DNA from: Allomuricauda ruestringensis DSM 13258
GTDB taxonomy: Bacteria; Bacteroidota; Bacteroidia; Flavobacteriales; Flavobacteriaceae
Direction: 5' to 3'
Assembly (NCBI RefSeq): GCF_000224085.1
Contig: NC_015945.1
Location: forward strand, 3,526,501 to 3,590,500
Length of the DNA stretch: 64,000 nucleotides
Position 1 is the stretch's first letter. Every line of letters begins with the position of its first letter. The translations under genes and the position numbers were made by a program. Shown one piece after another: positions 36,939 through 49,981 of the stretch. Under the pieces are notes generated by a model. The model did not search any database. It was given only the letters and a program-made list of their open reading frames with translations, and had not been told where the DNA came from.

Positions 36939-38456
36939 ATGAAAGCACGCACCATAGAAATTATGGACACCACCCTGCGGGATGGTGAACAAACCTCTGG
37001 GGTTTCCTTTTCCGCATCGGAAAAGCTCACCTTGGCCAAATTATTATTGGAAGAGCTCCAAGTAGACCGTATCGAAGTGGCTTCCGCCCGTGTTTCGGAA
37101 GGAGAACTACAGGCCGTAAAAAATATAACGGATTGGGCCGCCACAGAAGGTTACCTTTCCAACGTGGAAGTGTTGACCTTTGTGGACAATGGAGTATCCC
37201 TCAAATGGATGCAAGAAGCAGGTGCCAAAGTGCAAAACCTGCTCACCAAGGGCTCATTGAATCATTTAACCCACCAACTTAAAAAGACTCCTCAACAGCA
37301 TTTTACAGAAATAGAAAATGTAATTTCTGAAGGGCAAAAACTTGGAATAGAAACCAATGTTTATTTAGAAGACTGGAGTAACGGTATGCGAAATTCCAAG
37401 GATTATGTTTTTCAGTTTTTGGATTTTTTGACAAAGCAACCCATAAAGCGTGTCTTGCTTCCAGATACCCTAGGCGTGCTTACACATACCGAAACAGGAG
37501 CTTTTTTTAAAGAAATTGTTCAAAAGTATCCGAATACCCATTTCGATTTTCACGGACATAACGATTATGATTTGAGTGTCGCCAATGTTATGGAGGCAGT
37601 AAAAGCGGGCTGTCACGGATTGCACCTTACCGTAAATGGCATGGGAGAACGTGCAGGCAATGCACCACTTGCAAGTGCAGTTGCCGTAATCAACGATTTT
37701 TTACCAGAGATTAAGATTGGTGTAAAGGAATCATCACTTTACAAAGTAAGTAAATTGGTATCTGCCTTTACTGGTTTTAGCATTCCTGACAACAAACCTA
37801 TTGTTGGAGATAACGTGTTTACTCAAACTGCTGGCATACATGCAGATGGAGATAGCAAGAAGAATCTTTACTTTAACGATTTACTTCCGGAGCGATTTGG
37901 CAGAAAACGTAAATATGCCTTAGGTAAAACATCAGGAAAAGCGAACATCCAAAAGAATCTTCAAGAGCTTGGTTTAACTTTGAATGATGACGAACTGAAA
38001 AAGGTCACGGAACGTATTATTGAGCTTGGAGACAAAAAAGAGCGCGTCACCAAAGATGATTTGCCATACATCATTTCCGATGTATTGGACAGCAATCTTC
38101 GCCAGCAAAAGGTATTTGTAAAATCTTACGTGCTGACCCATTCCAAAGGACTGAAGCCCTCCACTACCCTTTCCATAGAAATTGAAGGGAAAACTTATGA
38201 AGAAAGTTCACAAGGAGATGGCCAGTTTGATGCTTTCATCAACGCTTTGAAGAAGGTATACAAAAAAGAAGGCAGGGAATTGCCGAAATTGGTGGATTAT
38301 GCCGTTCGTATCCCTCCAGGTAGTAATTCCGATGCCTTGTGCGAAACCATAATCACCTGGCAAACCAAGGAAAAGGATTTTACTACACGAGGTTTGGATT
38401 CGGATCAAACGGTATCCGCCATAAAAGCCACGGAAAAAATGCTAAACCTAGTATAA
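36939..38456 (+). CDS. 2-isopropylmalate / citramalate synthase-family enzyme
   Basis: 505 residues. HMGL-like barrel: IMDTTLRDGEQTSGVSFSA with the catalytic Arg and Asp, DFHGHNDYDLSVANVMEA (metal His) and GLHLTVNGMGERAGNAPLAS, then a C-terminal LeuA dimer/allosteric domain (STTLSIEIEGKTYEESSQGDGQFDA). Its place between leuD and leuB argues for acetyl-CoA condensation with 2-oxoisovalerate in leucine synthesis. The sequence is divergent from classical LeuA, and a citramalate or related synthase activity cannot be excluded, so no symbol is given. The allosteric domain suggests feedback control. Confidence 0.85.
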   Translation: MKARTIEIMDTTLRDGEQTSGVSFSASEKLTLAKLLLEELQVDRIEVASARVSEGELQAVKNITDWAATEGYLSNVEVLTFVDNGVSLKWMQEAGAKVQNLLTKGSLNHLTHQLKKTPQQHFTEIENVISEGQKLGIETNVYLEDWSNGMRNSKDYVFQFLDFLTKQPIKRVLLPDTLGVLTHTETGAFFKEIVQKYPNTHFDFHGHNDYDLSVANVMEAVKAGCHGLHLTVNGMGERAGNAPLASAVAVINDFLPEIKIGVKESSLYKVSKLVSAFTGFSIPDNKPIVGDNVFTQTAGIHADGDSKKNLYFNDLLPERFGRKRKYALGKTSGKANIQKNLQELGLTLNDDELKKVTERIIELGDKKERVTKDDLPYIISDVLDSNLRQQKVFVKSYVLTHSKGLKPSTTLSIEIEGKTYEESSQGDGQFDAFINALKKVYKKEGRELPKLVDYAVRIPPGSNSDALCETIITWQTKEKDFTTRGLDSDQTVSAIKATEKMLNLV

Positions 38457-41705: not shown

Positions 41706-42971
41706 TCACACCAAATATTGAAACAAATCGGGTTTGTTGTTGAGATAATCTCCAAAGAAGTTGTTTTCCTTCATTCGTTGAATCAAGGGTTGTAAATCGT
41801 CAGGGGATTTAAGTTCCACGCCAACAATGGCCGGTGCGTTCTCCCTACTTGATTTCTTCGAGTATTCAAAATGTGTGATATCGTCAGTAGGCCCAAGGAT
41901 ATCCACCACAAATTCCTTTAATGCGCCGGGACGCTGGGGAAACCTCACGATAAAATAATGCTTCAACTGGGCATAGAGCAAGGCCCTTTCCTTGATTTCG
42001 GCAGTACGGGTAATGTCGTTATTACTTCCACTGACCACACATACCACATTTTTGCCCTTTATTTCTTCCTTAAAATAGTCCAAGGCAGCAATAGTCAAAG
42101 CGCCTGCGGGTTCCACCACAATCGCATCCCTATTGTATAAATCCAAGATGGTTTGGCAGACCTTCCCTTCGGGAACGGTAATCATTTTAAACAAGTACTC
42201 CCTGCAAATGGGATAAGTTAATCCTCCTACTTTTTGAACAGCAGCTCCATCAATAAACTTATCAATGTTTTCCAACTCCACCAGTTCACCCCGCTCAATG
42301 GATTTCAACATAGACGGAGCGCCTTCGGGCTCCACACCAATGATTTTGGTGTTGGGCGACAGCGCTTGAAACGTACCGCAAAGTCCTGATGCCAATCCTC
42401 CTCCGCCAACAGCAACAAAAACATAGTCGATTGGTTCGCTGGATTGTTGTAAAATCTCCAACCCAACGGTGGCTTGGCCTTCTATGGTTTTTTCATCATC
42501 AAATGGATGCACAAAGGTTTTGCCTTCTTGCTCACAGAACAATTGGGCCGCTTTTTTGGAATCGTCAAAGGTGTCTCCCTCCAAAACTACATCAACCCAA
42601 TCGCCACCAAACATTTTGGTCTGGTCTATTTTCTGCTTTGGAGTCACCACGGGCATGTAAATGGTTCCATTTACCTGTAAATGACTACAAGCAAAGGCAA
42701 CACCTTGGGCATGATTTCCAGCGCTGGCACAAACCACGCCACTATCCAATTGCTTTTGGCTGAGTGAACTTATTTTGTTGTACGCACCACGGATTTTGTA
42801 ACTACGTACTCTATGAAGATCTTCTCTTTTTAGAAGAATATTGGCCCCATGAGTTTTGGAATAGCGGATACTTTGCTGCAACGGTGTTACCTCCGCCACT
42901 TGGGCAATGGTTTTTGCTGCTTGATAAATATCCGCTATTTGCGGAAAATAAGTTTCCACAGTTTCACTCAT
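41706..42971 (-). CDS. ilvA: Threonine dehydratase, biosynthetic type
   Basis: 421 residues. PLP-lysine motif HRVRSYKIRGAYNKIS near residue 58, ASAGNHAQGVAFAC, the glycine-rich VAVGGGGLASGLCGT and SGSNND. One C-terminal ACT-like regulatory domain (YFIVRFPQRPGALKEFV) gives the short single-domain form. It deaminates threonine to 2-oxobutyrate, the entry to isoleucine. It follows ilvC by 18 bases and closes the ilv operon. Confidence 0.94.
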   Translation of the reverse strand: MSETVETYFPQIADIYQAAKTIAQVAEVTPLQQSIRYSKTHGANILLKREDLHRVRSYKIRGAYNKISSLSQKQLDSGVVCASAGNHAQGVAFACSHLQVNGTIYMPVVTPKQKIDQTKMFGGDWVDVVLEGDTFDDSKKAAQLFCEQEGKTFVHPFDDEKTIEGQATVGLEILQQSSEPIDYVFVAVGGGGLASGLCGTFQALSPNTKIIGVEPEGAPSMLKSIERGELVELENIDKFIDGAAVQKVGGLTYPICREYLFKMITVPEGKVCQTILDLYNRDAIVVEPAGALTIAALDYFKEEIKGKNVVCVVSGSNNDITRTAEIKERALLYAQLKHYFIVRFPQRPGALKEFVVDILGPTDDITHFEYSKKSSRENAPAIVGVELKSPDDLQPLIQRMKENNFFGDYLNNKPDLFQYLV

Positions 42972-42989: not shown

Positions 42990-44465
42990 TTATCCGATTG
43001 GCTTCATTGCCGTCATGGATGCACGTAATCTGGCACCAACAACTTCTACATCGTGCTCACGGATAGCTTTGTTTACGGCAATCAACCTTACGTTGTCCAC
43101 TCCGGTATCTTTACCTTTACCAAAGTGCTTGCCAATAATATCGGTATCCACTTTCTTCATAAAATCGGTCAAAAGTGGTTTACACGCATGGTCGAACAAG
43201 TAACATCCGTACTCTGCAGTATCTGAAATGACGCGGTTCATCTCAAACAATTTCTTTCTCGCGATGGTATTTGCGATCAATGGAGTCTCATGCAATGATT
43301 CGTAGTAAGCCGAATCCCCAATAATTCCGGACTCGGTCATGGTTTCATAGGCCAATTCCACTCCTGATTTAACAAAAGCGACCATCAATACACCATTATC
43401 GTAGTATTCTTGCTCCGAGATTTCCATATCTCCTGCGGGCGTTTTTTCAAAAGCGGTTTCTCCTGTAGCAGCTCTCCAGTCCAATAGGTTTTTATCCCCA
43501 TTGTCCCAATCCTCCATCATGGTTTTGGAGAAATGTCCGCTCATAATGTCGTCCATGTGTTTTTGGAACAAAGGACGCATGATTACTTTCAACTCTTCGG
43601 CCAAATCAAATGCCTTGATTTTGGCTGGGTTGGACAAACGGTCCATCATATTGGTAATACCTCCCTGCTTTAACCCTTCAGTGATGGTTTCCCATCCGTA
43701 TTGAATCAATTTGGAAGCGTAAGCGGCATCAACACCTTTTTCAATCATTTTATTGAAAGAAAGAATGGAACCTGTCTGCAACAATCCACAAAGAATGGTC
43801 TGCTCTCCCATCAAATCTGACTTTACTTCCGCCACAAATGATGATTCCAGAACGCCTGCTTTATCACCACCTGTTCCCGCAGCATAAGCCTTGGCTTGCT
43901 CCAATCCTTTTCCTTCCGGGTCGTTCTCCGGGTGTACGGCAATCAAAGTAGGCACACCGAAACCTCTTTTGTACTCTTCGCGTACCTCGGAACCTGGGCT
44001 TTTGGGCGCCACCATGATCACGGTAAGGTCCTCTCGCACCTGCATCCCCTCTTCCACAATGTTGAAACCGTGGGAGTAAGACAAGGTTGCCCCTTTTTTC
44101 ATCAAAGGCATTACGGTACTTACCACATTGGTGTGCTGCTTGTCCGGTGTAAGGTTAATGACCAAATCGGCCGTTGGAATCAATTCTTCGTAGGTTCCAA
44201 CAACAAAGTTATTCTCCTTGGCGTTTTTAAAGGATTGTCTCTCCTCTTTTATAGCCGCTGGACGAAGTGCATAAGAGATATCCAATCCAGAGTCACGCAT
44301 GTTCAACCCTTGGTTCAATCCTTGGGCACCACACCCAACTATTACTATTTTCTTTCCTTTTAGTGCGGTAACACCATCAGCAAACTCGCTGGAATCCATA
44401 AATCTACATTTTCCCAATTGGGTCAGTTGTTCGCGAAGTGATAGTGTGTTAAAGTAATTTGCCAT
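42990..44465 (-). CDS. ilvC: Ketol-acid reductoisomerase, class II
   Basis: 491 residues, the long E. coli-like class. NADPH site [20 protein letters not shown] followed by SYALRP, catalytic acidic residues in [16 protein letters not shown] and a duplicated knotted C-terminal domain with [12 protein letters not shown]. It converts acetolactate and acetohydroxybutyrate to the dihydroxy acids. Co-transcribed between ilvN (24 bases upstream) and ilvA. Confidence 0.97.
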
Positions 44466-44489: not shown

Positions 44490-45017
44490 TTAGTTTTCTT
44501 GAAATTCCTGTAATATTTCGCTTATCGGCATTGCTGCCTTGGTTACCGTAATTCTCCCAGAACGCACAAACTGCATAATACCATAAGGTAAAAGTGCGTC
44601 GTGCATTTCGTCTATTTCATGTCTACGCCCTGTTTTTGCCAGGGCAAAGAACTCACGGTTAACGGTAACGATCTGTGCATTGCTTTCTTTGATGATGTTT
44701 TGAATCTGACGTTCATCAAACAACAAGTGCGAAGCAATTTTAAACAAAGCCGATTCCTGATAGATGGTTTCATCATCAGTGTGATAGTATGCTTTGATGA
44801 CCTCTATTTGTTTTTCTATCTGACCAACAATCTTGCGCGTCCAGTCTTCGGTGGTAAAAACTACAATCGTGAATTTAGAAACACCTTCTATCTCTGATTT
44901 TGAAACATTTAAACTCTCTATATTAATGTGTCGCTTCAAGAATATCCCAGATATTCTGTTGAGCAGTCCTACATGATTTTCGGAATACACCGATATGGTA
45001 TACCATTGTTTTTCCAT
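44490..45017 (-). CDS. ilvN: Acetolactate synthase small subunit
   Basis: 175 residues with an N-terminal ACT domain (TISVYSENHVGLLNRISGIF) and a second half containing EIDEMHDALLPYGIMQFVRS. It binds valine-type effectors and confers feedback control on the large subunit. 78 bases separate it from ilvB upstream. Could also be named ilvH; the two are not distinguishable here. Confidence 0.92.
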   Translation of the reverse strand: MEKQWYTISVYSENHVGLLNRISGIFLKRHINIESLNVSKSEIEGVSKFTIVVFTTEDWTRKIVGQIEKQIEVIKAYYHTDDETIYQESALFKIASHLLFDERQIQNIIKESNAQIVTVNREFFALAKTGRRHEIDEMHDALLPYGIMQFVRSGRITVTKAAMPISEILQEFQEN

Positions 45018-45095: not shown

Positions 45096-46829
45096 TTATT
45101 TTAATCTGATGTCTGAAACGGAAGCACCTGATGGAATCATTGGGAAAACGTTGTCCTCTTTCTCCACTTTCACTTCCAAAAAGTAGGGGTCGTTGGATGC
45201 CATCATTTCCTGTACTGCCTCTTGAAGGTCTTTACGTTCTGACACTCTTCTTGATTTAATATGATAACCCTCAGCGATTTTTACAAAATCTGGATTTGTC
45301 ATTACGGTGGATGCATATCGCCTATCAAAGAACAGTTCTTGCCATTGGCGCACCATGCCCAAGTGGTCATTGTTCAACACCACAATCTTGACGGGTACAT
45401 TGTGCTGGAAAATAACGCCCAACTCCTGAATGGTCATTTGATAACCGCCATCTCCTATGATTGCCACCACCTCGCGGTCCATAGCGCCCATTTTGGCTCC
45501 AATAGCGGCTGGAAGCCCAAACCCCATGGTTCCCAAACCTCCAGAGGTTATATTACTCTTGGATTGTTTGAACTTAGCATAACGGCAAGCTATCATTTGG
45601 TGTTGACCCACATCCGAAACAATTACTGCTTCATGACCAGAAGCCATATTGATTTGCTCGATTACCTCGCCCATAGTCAATCCTTCCTTGGTAGGATGAA
45701 TATCATTATTGATCAAGGTATCGTATTCGATTTGATACATCTTATCGAACTCGGCCTTCCATTCTTTGTGCTCATTTTTATTTACCAAAGGTAAAATCCC
45801 ACTCAAAGTTTCCTTGGCATTGCCCAAAACAGCAACATCCACTTTTACATTTTTGTTGACTTCCGCAGGATCTATCTCAAAATGAATGACCTTGGCCTGC
45901 TTGGCATAGGTGTCCAAGTTTCCGGTTACACGATCATCAAAACGCATCCCGATAGCGATAAGCACATCGCACTCGTTGGTCAACATGTTTGGACCATAGT
46001 TCCCGTGCATGCCCACCATACCAACGTTCAAAGGATGGTCGGTATCCATCGCGGATAGTCCTAAAATGGTCCAAGCGGCAGGAATTCCCGTTTTTTCAAC
46101 AAAGGCTTTAAGCTCAGCTTCAGCTTCACCCAAAATTACTCCTTGACCAAATACAATAAAAGGTTTTTTAGCATTGTTGATGAGTTCCGCTGCCTTTTCA
46201 AGGCTACTAGGTTCTGGTGTTGGAACGGGCTTATAACTACGAACCGCCGTACATTTTTCATACACAAAATCAAGCTCATCAAACTGTGCGTTTTTCGTAA
46301 TGTCCACCAACACAGGCCCCGGTCTTCCTGATCTAGCAATATAAAATGCCTTCGCCATAATCTCTGGAATCTCTTCCACCTTGGTAATCTGATAATTCCA
46401 TTTGGTCACTGGCGTAGAAATACCTACGATATCCGTTTCTTGGAACGCATCCGACCCCAAAAGACTTCTGGTTACCTGGCCCGTGATACACACCATAGGT
46501 GTAGAATCTATCTGTGCATCTGCAATTCCAGTCACCAAATTGGTCGCACCTGGCCCTGAAGTTGCCATGGCAACCCCTACCCTACCTGTAACCCTGGCGT
46601 AGCCTTGGGCAGCGTGTGTAGCGCCTTGCTCGTGACGCGTCAGAATATGGGTTAATTTATCTTGAAACTTGTATAGTTCATCGTAGACGGGCATAATGGC
46701 ACCTCCGGGGTAACCATAAATCAAATCAACCCCTTCTGCAAGCAAACAATGGATAATGGCTTCTGCACCAGAAATCCTAATTGCTTTTTGCTTTTTACTA
46801 TCTTTTTTTTGTGCTTTTAATGTCTCCAT
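45096..46829 (-). CDS. ilvB: Acetolactate synthase large subunit
   Basis: 577 residues. ThDP enzyme signatures: IYGYPGGAIMPVYDEL, catalytic Glu in LTRHEQGATHAAQGYAR, FAD/regulatory region SGPGATNLVTGIADAQ and the ThDP-Mg site IIGDGGYQMTIQELG with NNDHLGMVRQWQ. It condenses pyruvate with pyruvate or 2-oxobutyrate. Starts 36 bases after ilvD. Regulated with the operon by the attenuator at 48734-48847. Confidence 0.96.
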   Translation of the reverse strand: METLKAQKKDSKKQKAIRISGAEAIIHCLLAEGVDLIYGYPGGAIMPVYDELYKFQDKLTHILTRHEQGATHAAQGYARVTGRVGVAMATSGPGATNLVTGIADAQIDSTPMVCITGQVTRSLLGSDAFQETDIVGISTPVTKWNYQITKVEEIPEIMAKAFYIARSGRPGPVLVDITKNAQFDELDFVYEKCTAVRSYKPVPTPEPSSLEKAAELINNAKKPFIVFGQGVILGEAEAELKAFVEKTGIPAAWTILGLSAMDTDHPLNVGMVGMHGNYGPNMLTNECDVLIAIGMRFDDRVTGNLDTYAKQAKVIHFEIDPAEVNKNVKVDVAVLGNAKETLSGILPLVNKNEHKEWKAEFDKMYQIEYDTLINNDIHPTKEGLTMGEVIEQINMASGHEAVIVSDVGQHQMIACRYAKFKQSKSNITSGGLGTMGFGLPAAIGAKMGAMDREVVAIIGDGGYQMTIQELGVIFQHNVPVKIVVLNNDHLGMVRQWQELFFDRRYASTVMTNPDFVKIAEGYHIKSRRVSERKDLQEAVQEMMASNDPYFLEVKVEKEDNVFPMIPSGASVSDIRLK

Positions 46830-46865: not shown

Positions 46866-48542
46866 TTAGAACAAGTCGGTAACACAGCCTTTTGATGCAG
46901 ATGATACCGTTTTGGCATATTTATATAAGCTTCCTGATTTTATTTTGAGTTCAGGTTGCTTCCATTCTTTCATTCTTTCTTCAAACTCTTCGTCCGATAT
47001 ATTGATGTTGATGGTATTATTTACGGCATCAATGGTGATTTCATCTCCATCTTTCACCAAGGCAATCCCGCCACCTACCTGGGCTTCTGGAGAGACGTGA
47101 CCGACCACGAACCCGTGGGAACCACCGGAAAATCTTCCATCGGTTATCAGTGCAACATCTTTTCCGAGTCCAGCACCCATAATGGCAGATGTAGGCTTTA
47201 ACATTTCGGGCATTCCCGGAGCTCCTTTTGGACCTTCGTAACGAATGACCACCACATCGCCTTTTTGCACTTTTCCGGTATGGATTCCATGATTCACCGC
47301 AGTTTCGCTATCAAAAACACGAGCTGTTCCGGTAAATTCAAGTCCTTCTTTACCTGTGATTTTGGCTACGGCACCTTCAGAAGCGAGGTTTCCATATAAT
47401 ATACGAATATGGCCGGTTTCTTTAATGGGTTGTTCCTTCTTTCTGATGATATCCTGACCTTCGGCCAAATCAGGGGCATCCAATAGGTTTTCTGCCAATG
47501 TTTTTCCTGTGACCGTCATACAATCGCCATGAAGCATCCCTTCCTTCAGCATATATTTTAATACCGCTGGAACGCCACCTACTTTATGGAGGTCTTCCAT
47601 CAAGTATTTTCCACTTGGCTTTAAATCGGCCAATAAGGGCGTGGATTCACTGATTCTTGTGATATCCTCCAAGGTAAAATCAACCTCAGCAGCGTGTGCA
47701 ATGGCCATAAAGTGAAGCACGGCATTGGTAGAGCCACCAAGTACGGTGACTAACCTAAATGCGTTTTCCAATGATTTTTTAGTGACAATATCCCTTGGTT
47801 TGATGTCTTCCTTCAACAAATGCAACAAAGCGGCACCTGATGCTTCACAGTCCGCCTGTTTTTTATCGTTTACTGCCGGAATGGATGAGTTGAACGGTAT
47901 GGACATTCCCATGGCCTCAATGGCAGAAGCCATGGTGTTGGCGGTGTACATCCCTCCACAAGCTCCAGCTCCCGGGCATGCTTTATGGATGACTTCCTTG
48001 TATTCCGTTTCATCTATAGCGCCAGCGACTTTTTGTCCGTAAGCCTCAAAAGCTGAGATGATATCCAATTTTTTATTGTTGTGACACCCCGGAGCAATGG
48101 TTCCGCCATATACCAAGATGGATGGGCGGTTGAGTCGCAATTGCGCCATTAGGGCACCAGGCATGTTTTTATCGCATCCAACCACGGTGACCAATCCGTC
48201 GTAGCTCATGGCATGGATTACGGTTTCAATGGAATCGGCTATTATGTCCCTAGATGGCAAGGAGTATCGCATTCCTGGGGTTCCGTTGGATATTCCATCA
48301 CTCACCCCTATAGTGTTAAAGATAAGTCCGACCAAATTGGAGGACTCCACTCCCTTTTTTACATCGAGGGCCAGATCATTCAAGTGCATATTACAGGGGT
48401 TACCCTCGTAGCCTGTACTTGCAATCCCTATTAAAGGTTTTTGTAAATCTTCATCTGTTAATCCAATCGCGTGCAACATTGCTTGTGCAGCTGGCAGCGT
48501 TGGGTCTTGTGTAACTTTTTTACTAAACTTGTTCAATTCCAT
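46866..48542 (-). CDS. ilvD: Dihydroxy-acid dehydratase
   Basis: 558 residues from ATG at 48542 ([20 protein letters not shown]); an in-frame TTG two codons upstream is not needed. Iron-sulfur cysteines in [20 protein letters not shown] and [16 protein letters not shown], and the C-terminal [20 protein letters not shown]. It dehydrates dihydroxy acids to the 2-oxoacids of valine and isoleucine. First gene of ilvDBNCA. It is preceded by a 485-base leader holding the attenuator. Confidence 0.97.
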
Positions 48543-48733: not shown

Positions 48734-48771
48734 AAAAAAGGCCTGTATCGTATGGGATACAGGCCTTTTTT
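48734..48771 (-). terminator. Attenuator terminator of the ilv operon
   Basis: On the minus strand, GGCCTGTATC and GATACAGGCC form a 10-bp stem around a 6-base loop, followed by six T. Flanking A and T runs extend the pairing to 16 bp. It sits between the leader peptide (stop at 48791) and ilvD (start 48542). The 5' arm CTGTATC can instead pair with GATACAG at 48792-48786, so terminator and antiterminator exclude each other. Confidence 0.85.
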
Positions 48772-48790
48772 AGTCAATAGCAAGTCTGTA

Positions 48791-48847
48791 TCATTCCTTT
48801 TCTGGAATAATGATGACTTCGATAATGACTAGATTATTTCTTTTCAT
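48791..48847 (-). CDS. ilv operon leader peptide
   Basis: ATG at 48847 encodes MKRNNLVIIEVIIIPEKE and stops at TGA (48791-48793). Eight of nine residues from 6 to 14 are Leu, Val or Ile, the three products of the pathway. A stem, ATTATTCC (48811-48804) with GGAATGAT (48797-48790, one G-U), overlaps the last Ile codons and stop. Its 3' half shares GAT with the antiterminator segment. Stalling at the control codons would free the antiterminator; normal translation to the stop would let the terminator form. The promoter upstream was not identified with confidence. Confidence 0.8.
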   Translation of the reverse strand: MKRNNLVIIEVIIIPEKE

Positions 48848-49027
48848 ACATCAATGGTACGAAAAAATGGGTTGGATTCTATAATCTCAACAGAAAAATT
48901 TTGGTTTGATTTTATATCAGCTTAAAACTTAGCTTATCCCAAAGACCGTAAATCCTTAGACCAAGTCCGGTTCACTTGCTTAAGATTCACACTAAATATT
49001 TTTTAAAAATTTAGATAATTTCCTACT
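48848..49027. other. Promoter region upstream of the ilv leader
   Basis: 180 AT-rich bases between the ilv leader ATG and the stop of the lipoprotein gene at 49028. The ilv promoter should be here: TACCATTG (minus, 48859-48852) is a one-mismatch -7 match but is too close to the ATG, and TTGAGATTATAGAAT (minus, near 48890-48876) is another candidate. No gene or terminator for the upstream gene was seen. Confidence 0.35.
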
Positions 49028-49981
49028 CTATTCTGGCTTTTCGGAATCCGCCATGAAATCAGTTTTTTTCTTTAATATCCAGTTATAAAATTCTTTCTCA
49101 TCTAAAATGGACCAAGAATGTGGGTGTCTAGTTCCATCAGCTTTGAAACCTTTTCCCAATGCATTGACTAGACGCACATTTTTGTTTATTTCAGATAAAG
49201 CGTGTACCATGCTTTTGATTTGTTGGGAGTTAGTGGAGTTTAATTCTAATCCCATGTTTTCCATATACCAAGACTCATCTGGGTCTACGTAAAAACTTAT
49301 TTTATAATCTCGTAGATACTCTAGTTGATTATTTTCCTTAGCATCAATCAAATAAGGAGAATAATTTTTAAAGTCATTCAATGTTAATTCATGTTTACCT
49401 AGCTCGTATTCTAAATAATCAATAATGAAAACTGCTTCTTCAAAAGTTTGAGGATTATGATTTGCACGTTTAGCAATAAGCTGATTCCTATACAAAACAA
49501 ATAAGTCTACCGGTGAATCTATCACGAATAGATGAGTAGGTATAGGTTCAATGTTATTTTTTTTCGCAAAAATACCATAGTTTAAAGCTATGTTTCCACC
49601 TACAGATAGTCCACCCATAGTAATATTATGAGGAATTGAGTTATTCTCCAAAACCCTGGAAATTAAGCCAGAAAGTTCTTTAAATTTAGATTCATTAAGA
49701 GAGAAACTTTGGTTGAATCCAATAATCAAAATTGCAAAACCAGTTTCATCGCCAAACTCATCCAACTCGGTTTCAATTAAAGTAGATTGATTGGAATTAC
49801 CGAAGGAGGGGAATAGAACGACTAATCCCTTAACGGAATTTTTTGGCATGCACAACAAGTATTCAAACTTAGAATCAGTTTTTATACTATCTGTTTTCAT
49901 ATCTGGTATGCTCTCCATGCATCCAAATAGGGAGAATGTTGCTAAAAGAAAGAGATACATTGAAAAGTCCTTTCTTCTCAC
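49028..49981 (-). CDS. Lipoprotein with alpha/beta-hydrolase fold
   Basis: 317 residues. GTG at 49981 gives a charged n-region (RRKDFS) before MYLFLLATFSLFGC with lipidation at Cys21; an internal ATG at 49960 is the alternative. Hydrolase features: GLVVLFPSFGNSNQS as oxyanion strand, nucleophile elbow TMGGLSVGGNIALN near residue 125 and a late HPHSWSILDE that may supply the His. Substrate unknown. Its base composition is AT-rich compared with the ilv genes. Solitary gene. Confidence 0.75.
   Translation of the reverse strand: MRRKDFSMYLFLLATFSLFGCMESIPDMKTDSIKTDSKFEYLLCMPKNSVKGLVVLFPSFGNSNQSTLIETELDEFGDETGFAILIIGFNQSFSLNESKFKELSGLISRVLENNSIPHNITMGGLSVGGNIALNYGIFAKKNNIEPIPTHLFVIDSPVDLFVLYRNQLIAKRANHNPQTFEEAVFIIDYLEYELGKHELTLNDFKNYSPYLIDAKENNQLEYLRDYKISFYVDPDESWYMENMGLELNSTNSQQIKSMVHALSEINKNVRLVNALGKGFKADGTRHPHSWSILDEKEFYNWILKKKTDFMADSEKPE

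Follow-up and report, generated by a model that had tools for sequence, protein, structure and literature searches.

The region upstream of ilvD, on the minus strand of the 64,000-nucleotide stretch of Allomuricauda ruestringensis DNA that was analysed (the window), encodes a short peptide rich in isoleucine, leucine and valine (ILV), followed by three alternative stems that end in an intrinsic terminator. Judged from its sequence, this region is very probably a ribosome-mediated transcription attenuator of the ilvDBNCA operon. A classical attenuator had been proposed at this position in a preliminary description, and conservation of the peptide frame and of the pairings supported that proposal. 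Each gene of the ilvD-ilvB-ilvN-ilvC-ilvA operon scored above a curated NCBIfam cut-off. The operon and its leader comprise the following features.

46866-48542, minus strand: ilvD, dihydroxy-acid dehydratase, first regulated gene, ATG at 48542
45096-46829, minus strand: ilvB, acetolactate synthase large subunit (NCBIfam)
44490-45017, minus strand: ilvN, acetolactate synthase small subunit (NCBIfam)
42990-44465, minus strand: ilvC, ketol-acid reductoisomerase (NCBIfam)
41706-42971, minus strand: ilvA, threonine ammonia-lyase (NCBIfam)
48847-48791, minus strand: leader peptide ORF MKRNNLVIIEVIIIPEKE, 18 codons plus TGA
48811-48804, minus strand: region 1, ATTATTCC, pairs with 48797-48790 and overlaps Ile codons 13-14
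48786-48797, minus strand: region 2, GGAATGAT (stem 1:2, 48797-48790) overlapping GATACAG (stem 2:3, 48792-48786), includes the UGA stop
48762-48756, minus strand: region 3, CTGTATC, forms the antiterminator with region 2 or the terminator with region 4
48771-48734, minus strand: intrinsic terminator (stem 3:4), 10-bp core lengthened to 16 bp by A-U pairs, T6 at 48734

Elsewhere in the window, a leuA-like gene adjoining leuB (36939-38456) gave its best match, below cut-off, to a Leptospira citramalate synthase model.

The leader peptide and the alternative stems

The 18-residue peptide, with Leu, Val or Ile at eight of the nine positions 6-14, and the letters of stems 1:2, 2:3 and 3:4 were all recovered at the positions listed above, as previously described. 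The terminator, described earlier as 10 bp with six T, retained this core and T6 but proved to have a longer stem of 16 bp including A-U pairs, in which 48771-48756 pairs with 48749-48734. It lies between the leader and the structural genes, ending 191 nt from the ilvD start.

When the 491-nt intergenic region was subjected to 5000 dinucleotide shuffles, an ORF (ATG start, 8-32 codons) with 8-9 ILV residues out of nine, as in the window (8/9), occurred in 21 of them; at least seven were reached in 164 and at least six in 859. The terminator scored 25.3, a level that none of 400 shuffles of the same region approached (0/400 at 20 or above). With these frequencies, a chance origin of the ILV-rich ORF and terminator was considered unlikely. 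Across both strands of the whole window, which carried nine terminators scoring above 15, no other ATG-started short ORF preceding a terminator exceeded 3/9 ILV.

The 114-nt leader folded at -42.7 kcal/mol (z = -9.1), and none of 200 shuffles equalled this value. In folding calculations with assumed ribosome footprint sizes, a ribosome covering codons up to Ile14 left a nascent RNA that formed stem 2:3 (-8.0 kcal/mol), and with the ribosome at the stop codon the terminator alone formed. Stem 2:3 is weak in comparison with the terminator (-8.0 versus -23 kcal/mol) and would have to win kinetically.

Distribution and pairing among relatives

At 65 of 110 ilvD loci a short ORF rich in ILV was detected ahead of a terminator, with 79 elements in total. 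These loci were L003-L032, from 59 genomes including that of the window, and L033-L112, the 80 best of 590 relatives in a named collection, whose two top matches were Flagellimonas, probably also the genus of the window; they are not all distinct genomes, as L011 and L033 apparently represent the same contig. With 900 nt of upstream sequence 56 of the 110 loci were positive, and the count of 65 was obtained with 2400 nt and longer loops allowed. A spurious element of L045 at -1535 was removed before the 79 were counted; two doubtful ones, that of L094 and the first of L112, were kept (L112 also among the 14 tandem loci described below). The 45 loci without a detected element included L105 and L111, which were counted as misses with just 106 and 49 nt of upstream sequence, and five of the 29 same-genus loci. 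Within the genus the element was thus found at 24 of 29 loci, or at 26 of 33 when four extra loci (L158-L161: two with an element, one without, one with only 271 nt) were included; the same-genus genomes G013 and G032, which had a match, were left out of this count. The five same-genus loci without a detected attenuator (L021, L022, L028, L029 and L030) kept the downstream promoter box P2 described below and offer natural comparison strains.

Apart from three others, the 79 elements fell into three sequence types.

Type A, the window's type: GATACAG/CTGTATC/GATACAG, 50 elements
Type B: GGAAG/CTTCC, 19 elements
Type C: around ATCCCTT, 7 elements, Aquimarina

More widely in the taxonomic class, a leader with at least 6/9 ILV before a terminator was seen at 18 of 45 loci (20 of 49 once the four extra loci from the genus are added), the sample being 45 of 60 other genomes with a match. 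A loose screen hit 24 of 45 (26 of 49). Some of these matches are probably false, for example long hydrophobic ORFs in L121 and L128.

The hairpin could instead be a mere terminator of the upstream gene (49981-49028), preceded by an ORF that arose by chance. As that explanation would have it, this gene shares its strand with the hairpin and stops about 257 nt short of it. However, the longest ORFs upstream of the element fell into 24 homology clusters over the 65 loci (the largest with 30 members), and at five same-genus loci the upstream ORF ran in the opposite direction; the 1:2 stem and the stop-codon overlap were kept all the same. We consider simple termination of the upstream gene highly improbable.

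The last nine control codons of the 79 elements had an ILV fraction of 0.79 in frame, against 0.41 and 0.01 when read in the two alternative frames, the in-frame value being biased upward because the ORFs had been selected by ILV content. Ile accounted for 45%, Val for 28% (together 73%) and Leu for 5% of the control positions; Ile and Val are likely to be the signals sensed, with Leu a minor part. In type A the last Ile/Leu/Val pair ended 12-13 nt ahead of region 2 in 36 of 50 elements, and the stop codon was a TGA running into region 2 in 45 of 50. In type B this pair ended 11-13 nt ahead of region 2 in 11 of 19 elements.

Pair counts were made on an alignment of 44 type-A elements that excluded the L094 element, the first L112 element and near-identical rows and in which five rows began 4 to 9 nt later. 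Such an alignment of relatives had been proposed earlier as a check. The peptide frame and pairings proved conserved and stems 1:2 and 3:4 covaried; stem 2:3 showed no double change within type A. In stem 1:2, the protector hairpin, 93.8% of cells were paired (slid controls 34-50%) and 42 were double-changed; in its covarying 8-bp core 97.4% were paired. Stem 3:4 was paired in 100% of cells with 33 double-changed cells (slid controls 24-58%). Out of five shuffle measures, 1:2 was unexceptional on two (23/500 and 111/500 shuffles) and 3:4 on one (134/500). For stem 2:3, 99.4% of cells were paired (slid controls 15-47%); its changes were one-sided only, and shuffled partners paired equally often (500/500). 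Covariation within type A therefore neither supports nor opposes 2:3. The rigidity of region 2 may arise because the stop codon and both of its partners, regions 1 and 3, constrain it simultaneously.

Support for stem 2:3 comes from the comparison between types. Calculated duplex energies of region 2 were lower with its own region 3 than with those of other types in type A (-9.7 versus -4.9 kcal/mol, n=50, p ~2e-15), in type B (-8.0 versus -6.3 kcal/mol, n=19, p 1e-4) and in the set from the wider taxonomic class (-9.8 versus -6.8 kcal/mol, n=21, p 1e-3), and the test was marginal for type C (n=7, p=0.08); these p values are optimistic because the sequences are related. An earlier own-versus-other score that was not a duplex energy did not separate type B (10.9 versus 10.2). 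Pairing, between-type comparison and folding together provide structural evidence for an antiterminator that excludes the terminator.

A covariance model of the sequence and terminated structure, built without gene information, gave one strong match in the own genome (91.8 bits); the next (47.5 bits) was this palindrome read on the opposite strand. Among 299 family genomes, which partly overlap the model's training set, matches at E <= 0.001, many of them weak, were present in 119, and 50, the own genome included, reached 50 bits. Of the 29 further loci retrieved through this search, 24 lay before ilvD and five before ilvE-ilvD (29/29 in total), with an ILV-rich ORF in place at 28 and no ORF found at the remaining one, L192; this second set overlaps the first, as at least four loci (L171, L174, L176 and L182) repeat known peptides.

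Alternative stems ahead of a biosynthetic operon would also fit a ligand-binding riboswitch or a T-box in place of a translated leader. No Rfam family reached its gathering score in the leader; the best sub-threshold match was Thr_leader (RF00506; 38.5 bits versus 55, and 32.1 on the opposite strand). The sole exception lay upstream, where a DUF805b RNA match (49020-49054, minus strand, 49.5 bits, cut-off 35.6) overlaps the end of gene 49981-49028. Moreover, Val and Ile at codons 11-14 were retained across an alignment of 25 same-genus leaders (codon 11 Val in 25/25, codon 13 Ile in 23/25), with near-fixed spacing to region 2. A riboswitch or T-box is accordingly a very improbable reading, and translation-dependent attenuation is preferred. 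In a relative, a SAM-II riboswitch match (L097:1941-2023, minus strand, 55.8 bits, cut-off 44) was observed near the ilv locus of Flavivirga rizhaonensis.

Candidate promoter boxes and further leaders

Two candidate promoter boxes flank the attenuator.

48852-48859, minus strand: P1, putative -7 promoter box TACCATTG, 5/6 to TAnnTTTG, 4 nt before the leader AUG
48599-48592, minus strand: P2, putative -7 promoter box TATCTTTG, past the terminator and roughly 50 nt ahead of ilvD

The preliminary description had held that a transcription start only downstream of 48734 would speak against attenuation. A downstream box does exist, in the form of P2, but it is not the only one, as P1 stands directly before the leader; with boxes both before the leader and after the terminator, two starts are expected. 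The P1 transcript is predicted from the sequence to start at 48847 and, since the box ends 4 nt ahead of the AUG, the leader mRNA is predicted to be leaderless. In Flavobacterium johnsoniae, boxes 4 or 5 nt from the start were deemed probable promoters (PMC6847099), and in F. psychrophilum the box occupies -12 to -5, with leaderless mRNAs, described as rare, amounting to 5.5% of mRNAs (PMC9723704). No -33 element was established for P1, whose box itself matches at five of six positions.

Among relatives, a box with at least 5/6 identity to TAnnTTTG was located 3-12 nt before the start codon in 57 of 65 first or only elements, compared with 11, 10 and 10 of 65 when the search window was moved 20, 35 and 50 nt upstream. 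The gap between box and start in type-A first or only elements was 4 nt in 29, 5 nt in six and different in two others. Of the 22 single elements in the second set, 16 had a gap of 4-5 nt; with three repeated peptides removed, the count was 13 of 19. Second elements of tandems carried a -7 box in one of 14 cases, and downstream tandem elements of the second set in one of six.

P2 was an exact TAnnTTTG in all 29 same-genus loci (28 TATCTTTG, one TATATTTG), including the five without an attenuator. Of 56 loci with an element close by, 39 had such an exact box within 140 nt of ilvD, versus 215 of 2200 shuffled segments. Conservation of P2 after the terminator implies that some ilvD transcription should escape control, and P2 may carry much of it. 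The attenuator might then be real and yet of small effect here, with most ilvD mRNA supplied by P2. The exact P2 box at 29/29 loci agrees with this, whereas retention of the attenuator, with covarying stems, at 24 of 29 same-genus loci does not; we regard a small effect as rather unlikely.

The window contains one leader. Two leaders in series were present at 14 of the 65 loci (L036, L042, L044 from Bizionia arctica, L045, L052, L062, L065, L074, L076, L083, L096, L100, L106 and L112), 11 of them with a type B element followed by type A and three with two type C elements. They precede ilvE-ilvD or ilvD in Tenacibaculum, Bizionia, Kordia, Sinomicrobium, Gelidibacter, Aquimarina and other genera; both leaders are Ile/Val rich and should act in series.

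Leaders for other amino acids were found in the own genome.

L199, near G000:C1:3427470: His-rich leader MRNKNTHHHFYTCPQAR and terminator before hisG
L200, near G000:C1:2349713: Trp-rich leader MINRIANNWWWINLRRTS and terminator before the best trpE match, which is below its model's cut-off

An exact box ends 7 nt before the start codon of the hisG leader (TATTTTTG) and 5 nt before that of the trpE leader (TATATTTG). With 4 nt for ilv, 5 nt for trp and 7 nt for his, the his layout is only nearly leaderless. No leader with an amino-acid run was found in this genome before leuC, three aspartate-kinase loci or a second trpE-like locus.

Proposed mechanism and known systems

From sequence, conservation, pairing and position before the ilv genes, we infer a mechanism in which transcript starts, translation, stalling and read-through would be connected as follows. 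RNA polymerase would start at P1, at the A of the leader AUG, and with this predicted start a ribosome would load onto the leaderless 5' end. Charged Ile and Val tRNA would be the sensed signal. When Ile or Val is scarce, the ribosome would stall on GUC AUC AUU AUU (codons 11-14) and open hairpin 1:2, so that the free GAUACAG of region 2 could trap CUGUAUC of region 3, block the terminator and allow the operon to be read. When both are plentiful, the ribosome would cover the UGA inside region 2, regions 3 and 4 would pair and transcription would stop at about 48734. If no ribosome is present, 1:2 would hide region 2 and the terminator would form too. P2 would supply an unattenuated basal level.

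With the AUG as first transcribed codon, a ribosome can trail the polymerase from the first nucleotides. The odds that ribosome-mediated attenuation in flavobacteria operates on leaderless leader mRNAs appear to us even; if true, this would call for tight coupling of transcription and translation in Bacteroidota. As attenuation can work only if a ribosome follows the polymerase closely, the element would offer a direct handle on such coupling, and also on how ribosomes start at a leaderless mRNA where Shine-Dalgarno sequences are unused. Classical attenuation in Bacteroidota is here made concrete, with named stems, codons, predicted transcript ends, a comparative set and his and trp counterparts.

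The leader attenuators of Escherichia coli ilvGMEDA and ilvBN consist of an ILV-rich peptide, stems 1:2, 2:3 and 3:4 and a terminator before the ilv genes. The present element shares the peptide type, the three stems and the terminator before ilv genes, and differs in its predicted leaderless start, in a stop codon inside the antiterminator and in its lineage. Candidate attenuators in Bacteroidetes/Chlorobi are reportedly mentioned in the Vitreschak 2004 abstract. A 2010 paper (PMC2965389) was aware of no demonstrated case beyond Proteobacteria and Actinobacteria other than the Firmicutes one that it described. Compared by description, the Corynebacterium ilvBNC uORF (ilvB-II motif) likewise has a branched-chain-amino-acid-rich uORF, of 15-17 residues, with terminator and antiterminator, and differs in belonging to Actinobacteria and preceding ilvB (PMC10272879); the reference list of that paper includes Morbach 2000, on how a leader peptide is formed in the absence of a ribosome binding site. 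Salmonella mgtCBR has tandem attenuators with two short ORFs in one leader (PMC3641672), as in some of the relatives studied here, whose leaders are both Ile/Val rich.

Within the phylum, the 5' UTR short ORFs of Bacteroides thetaiotaomicron include no ilv example in the accessible text and are unvalidated there (PMC7366714). The preliminary description had doubted how well such attenuation is described in flavobacteria; it is already reported, with "strong clues" of leader-peptide attenuation before amino-acid biosynthesis operons in the related flavobacterium F. psychrophilum (PMC9723704). The mechanism is of the same kind, the operons are unnamed in the main text available, and an ilvD leader may already be in the supplementary tables. 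Searches of the open-licence PMC literature turned up no article that deals with a named ilvD leader from Bacteroidota. This kind of attenuator is known and its use by flavobacteria is in print in general terms; the ilvD element is a further member, of which the predicted leaderless start, the P2 bypass and the tandem leaders are the parts most worth testing.
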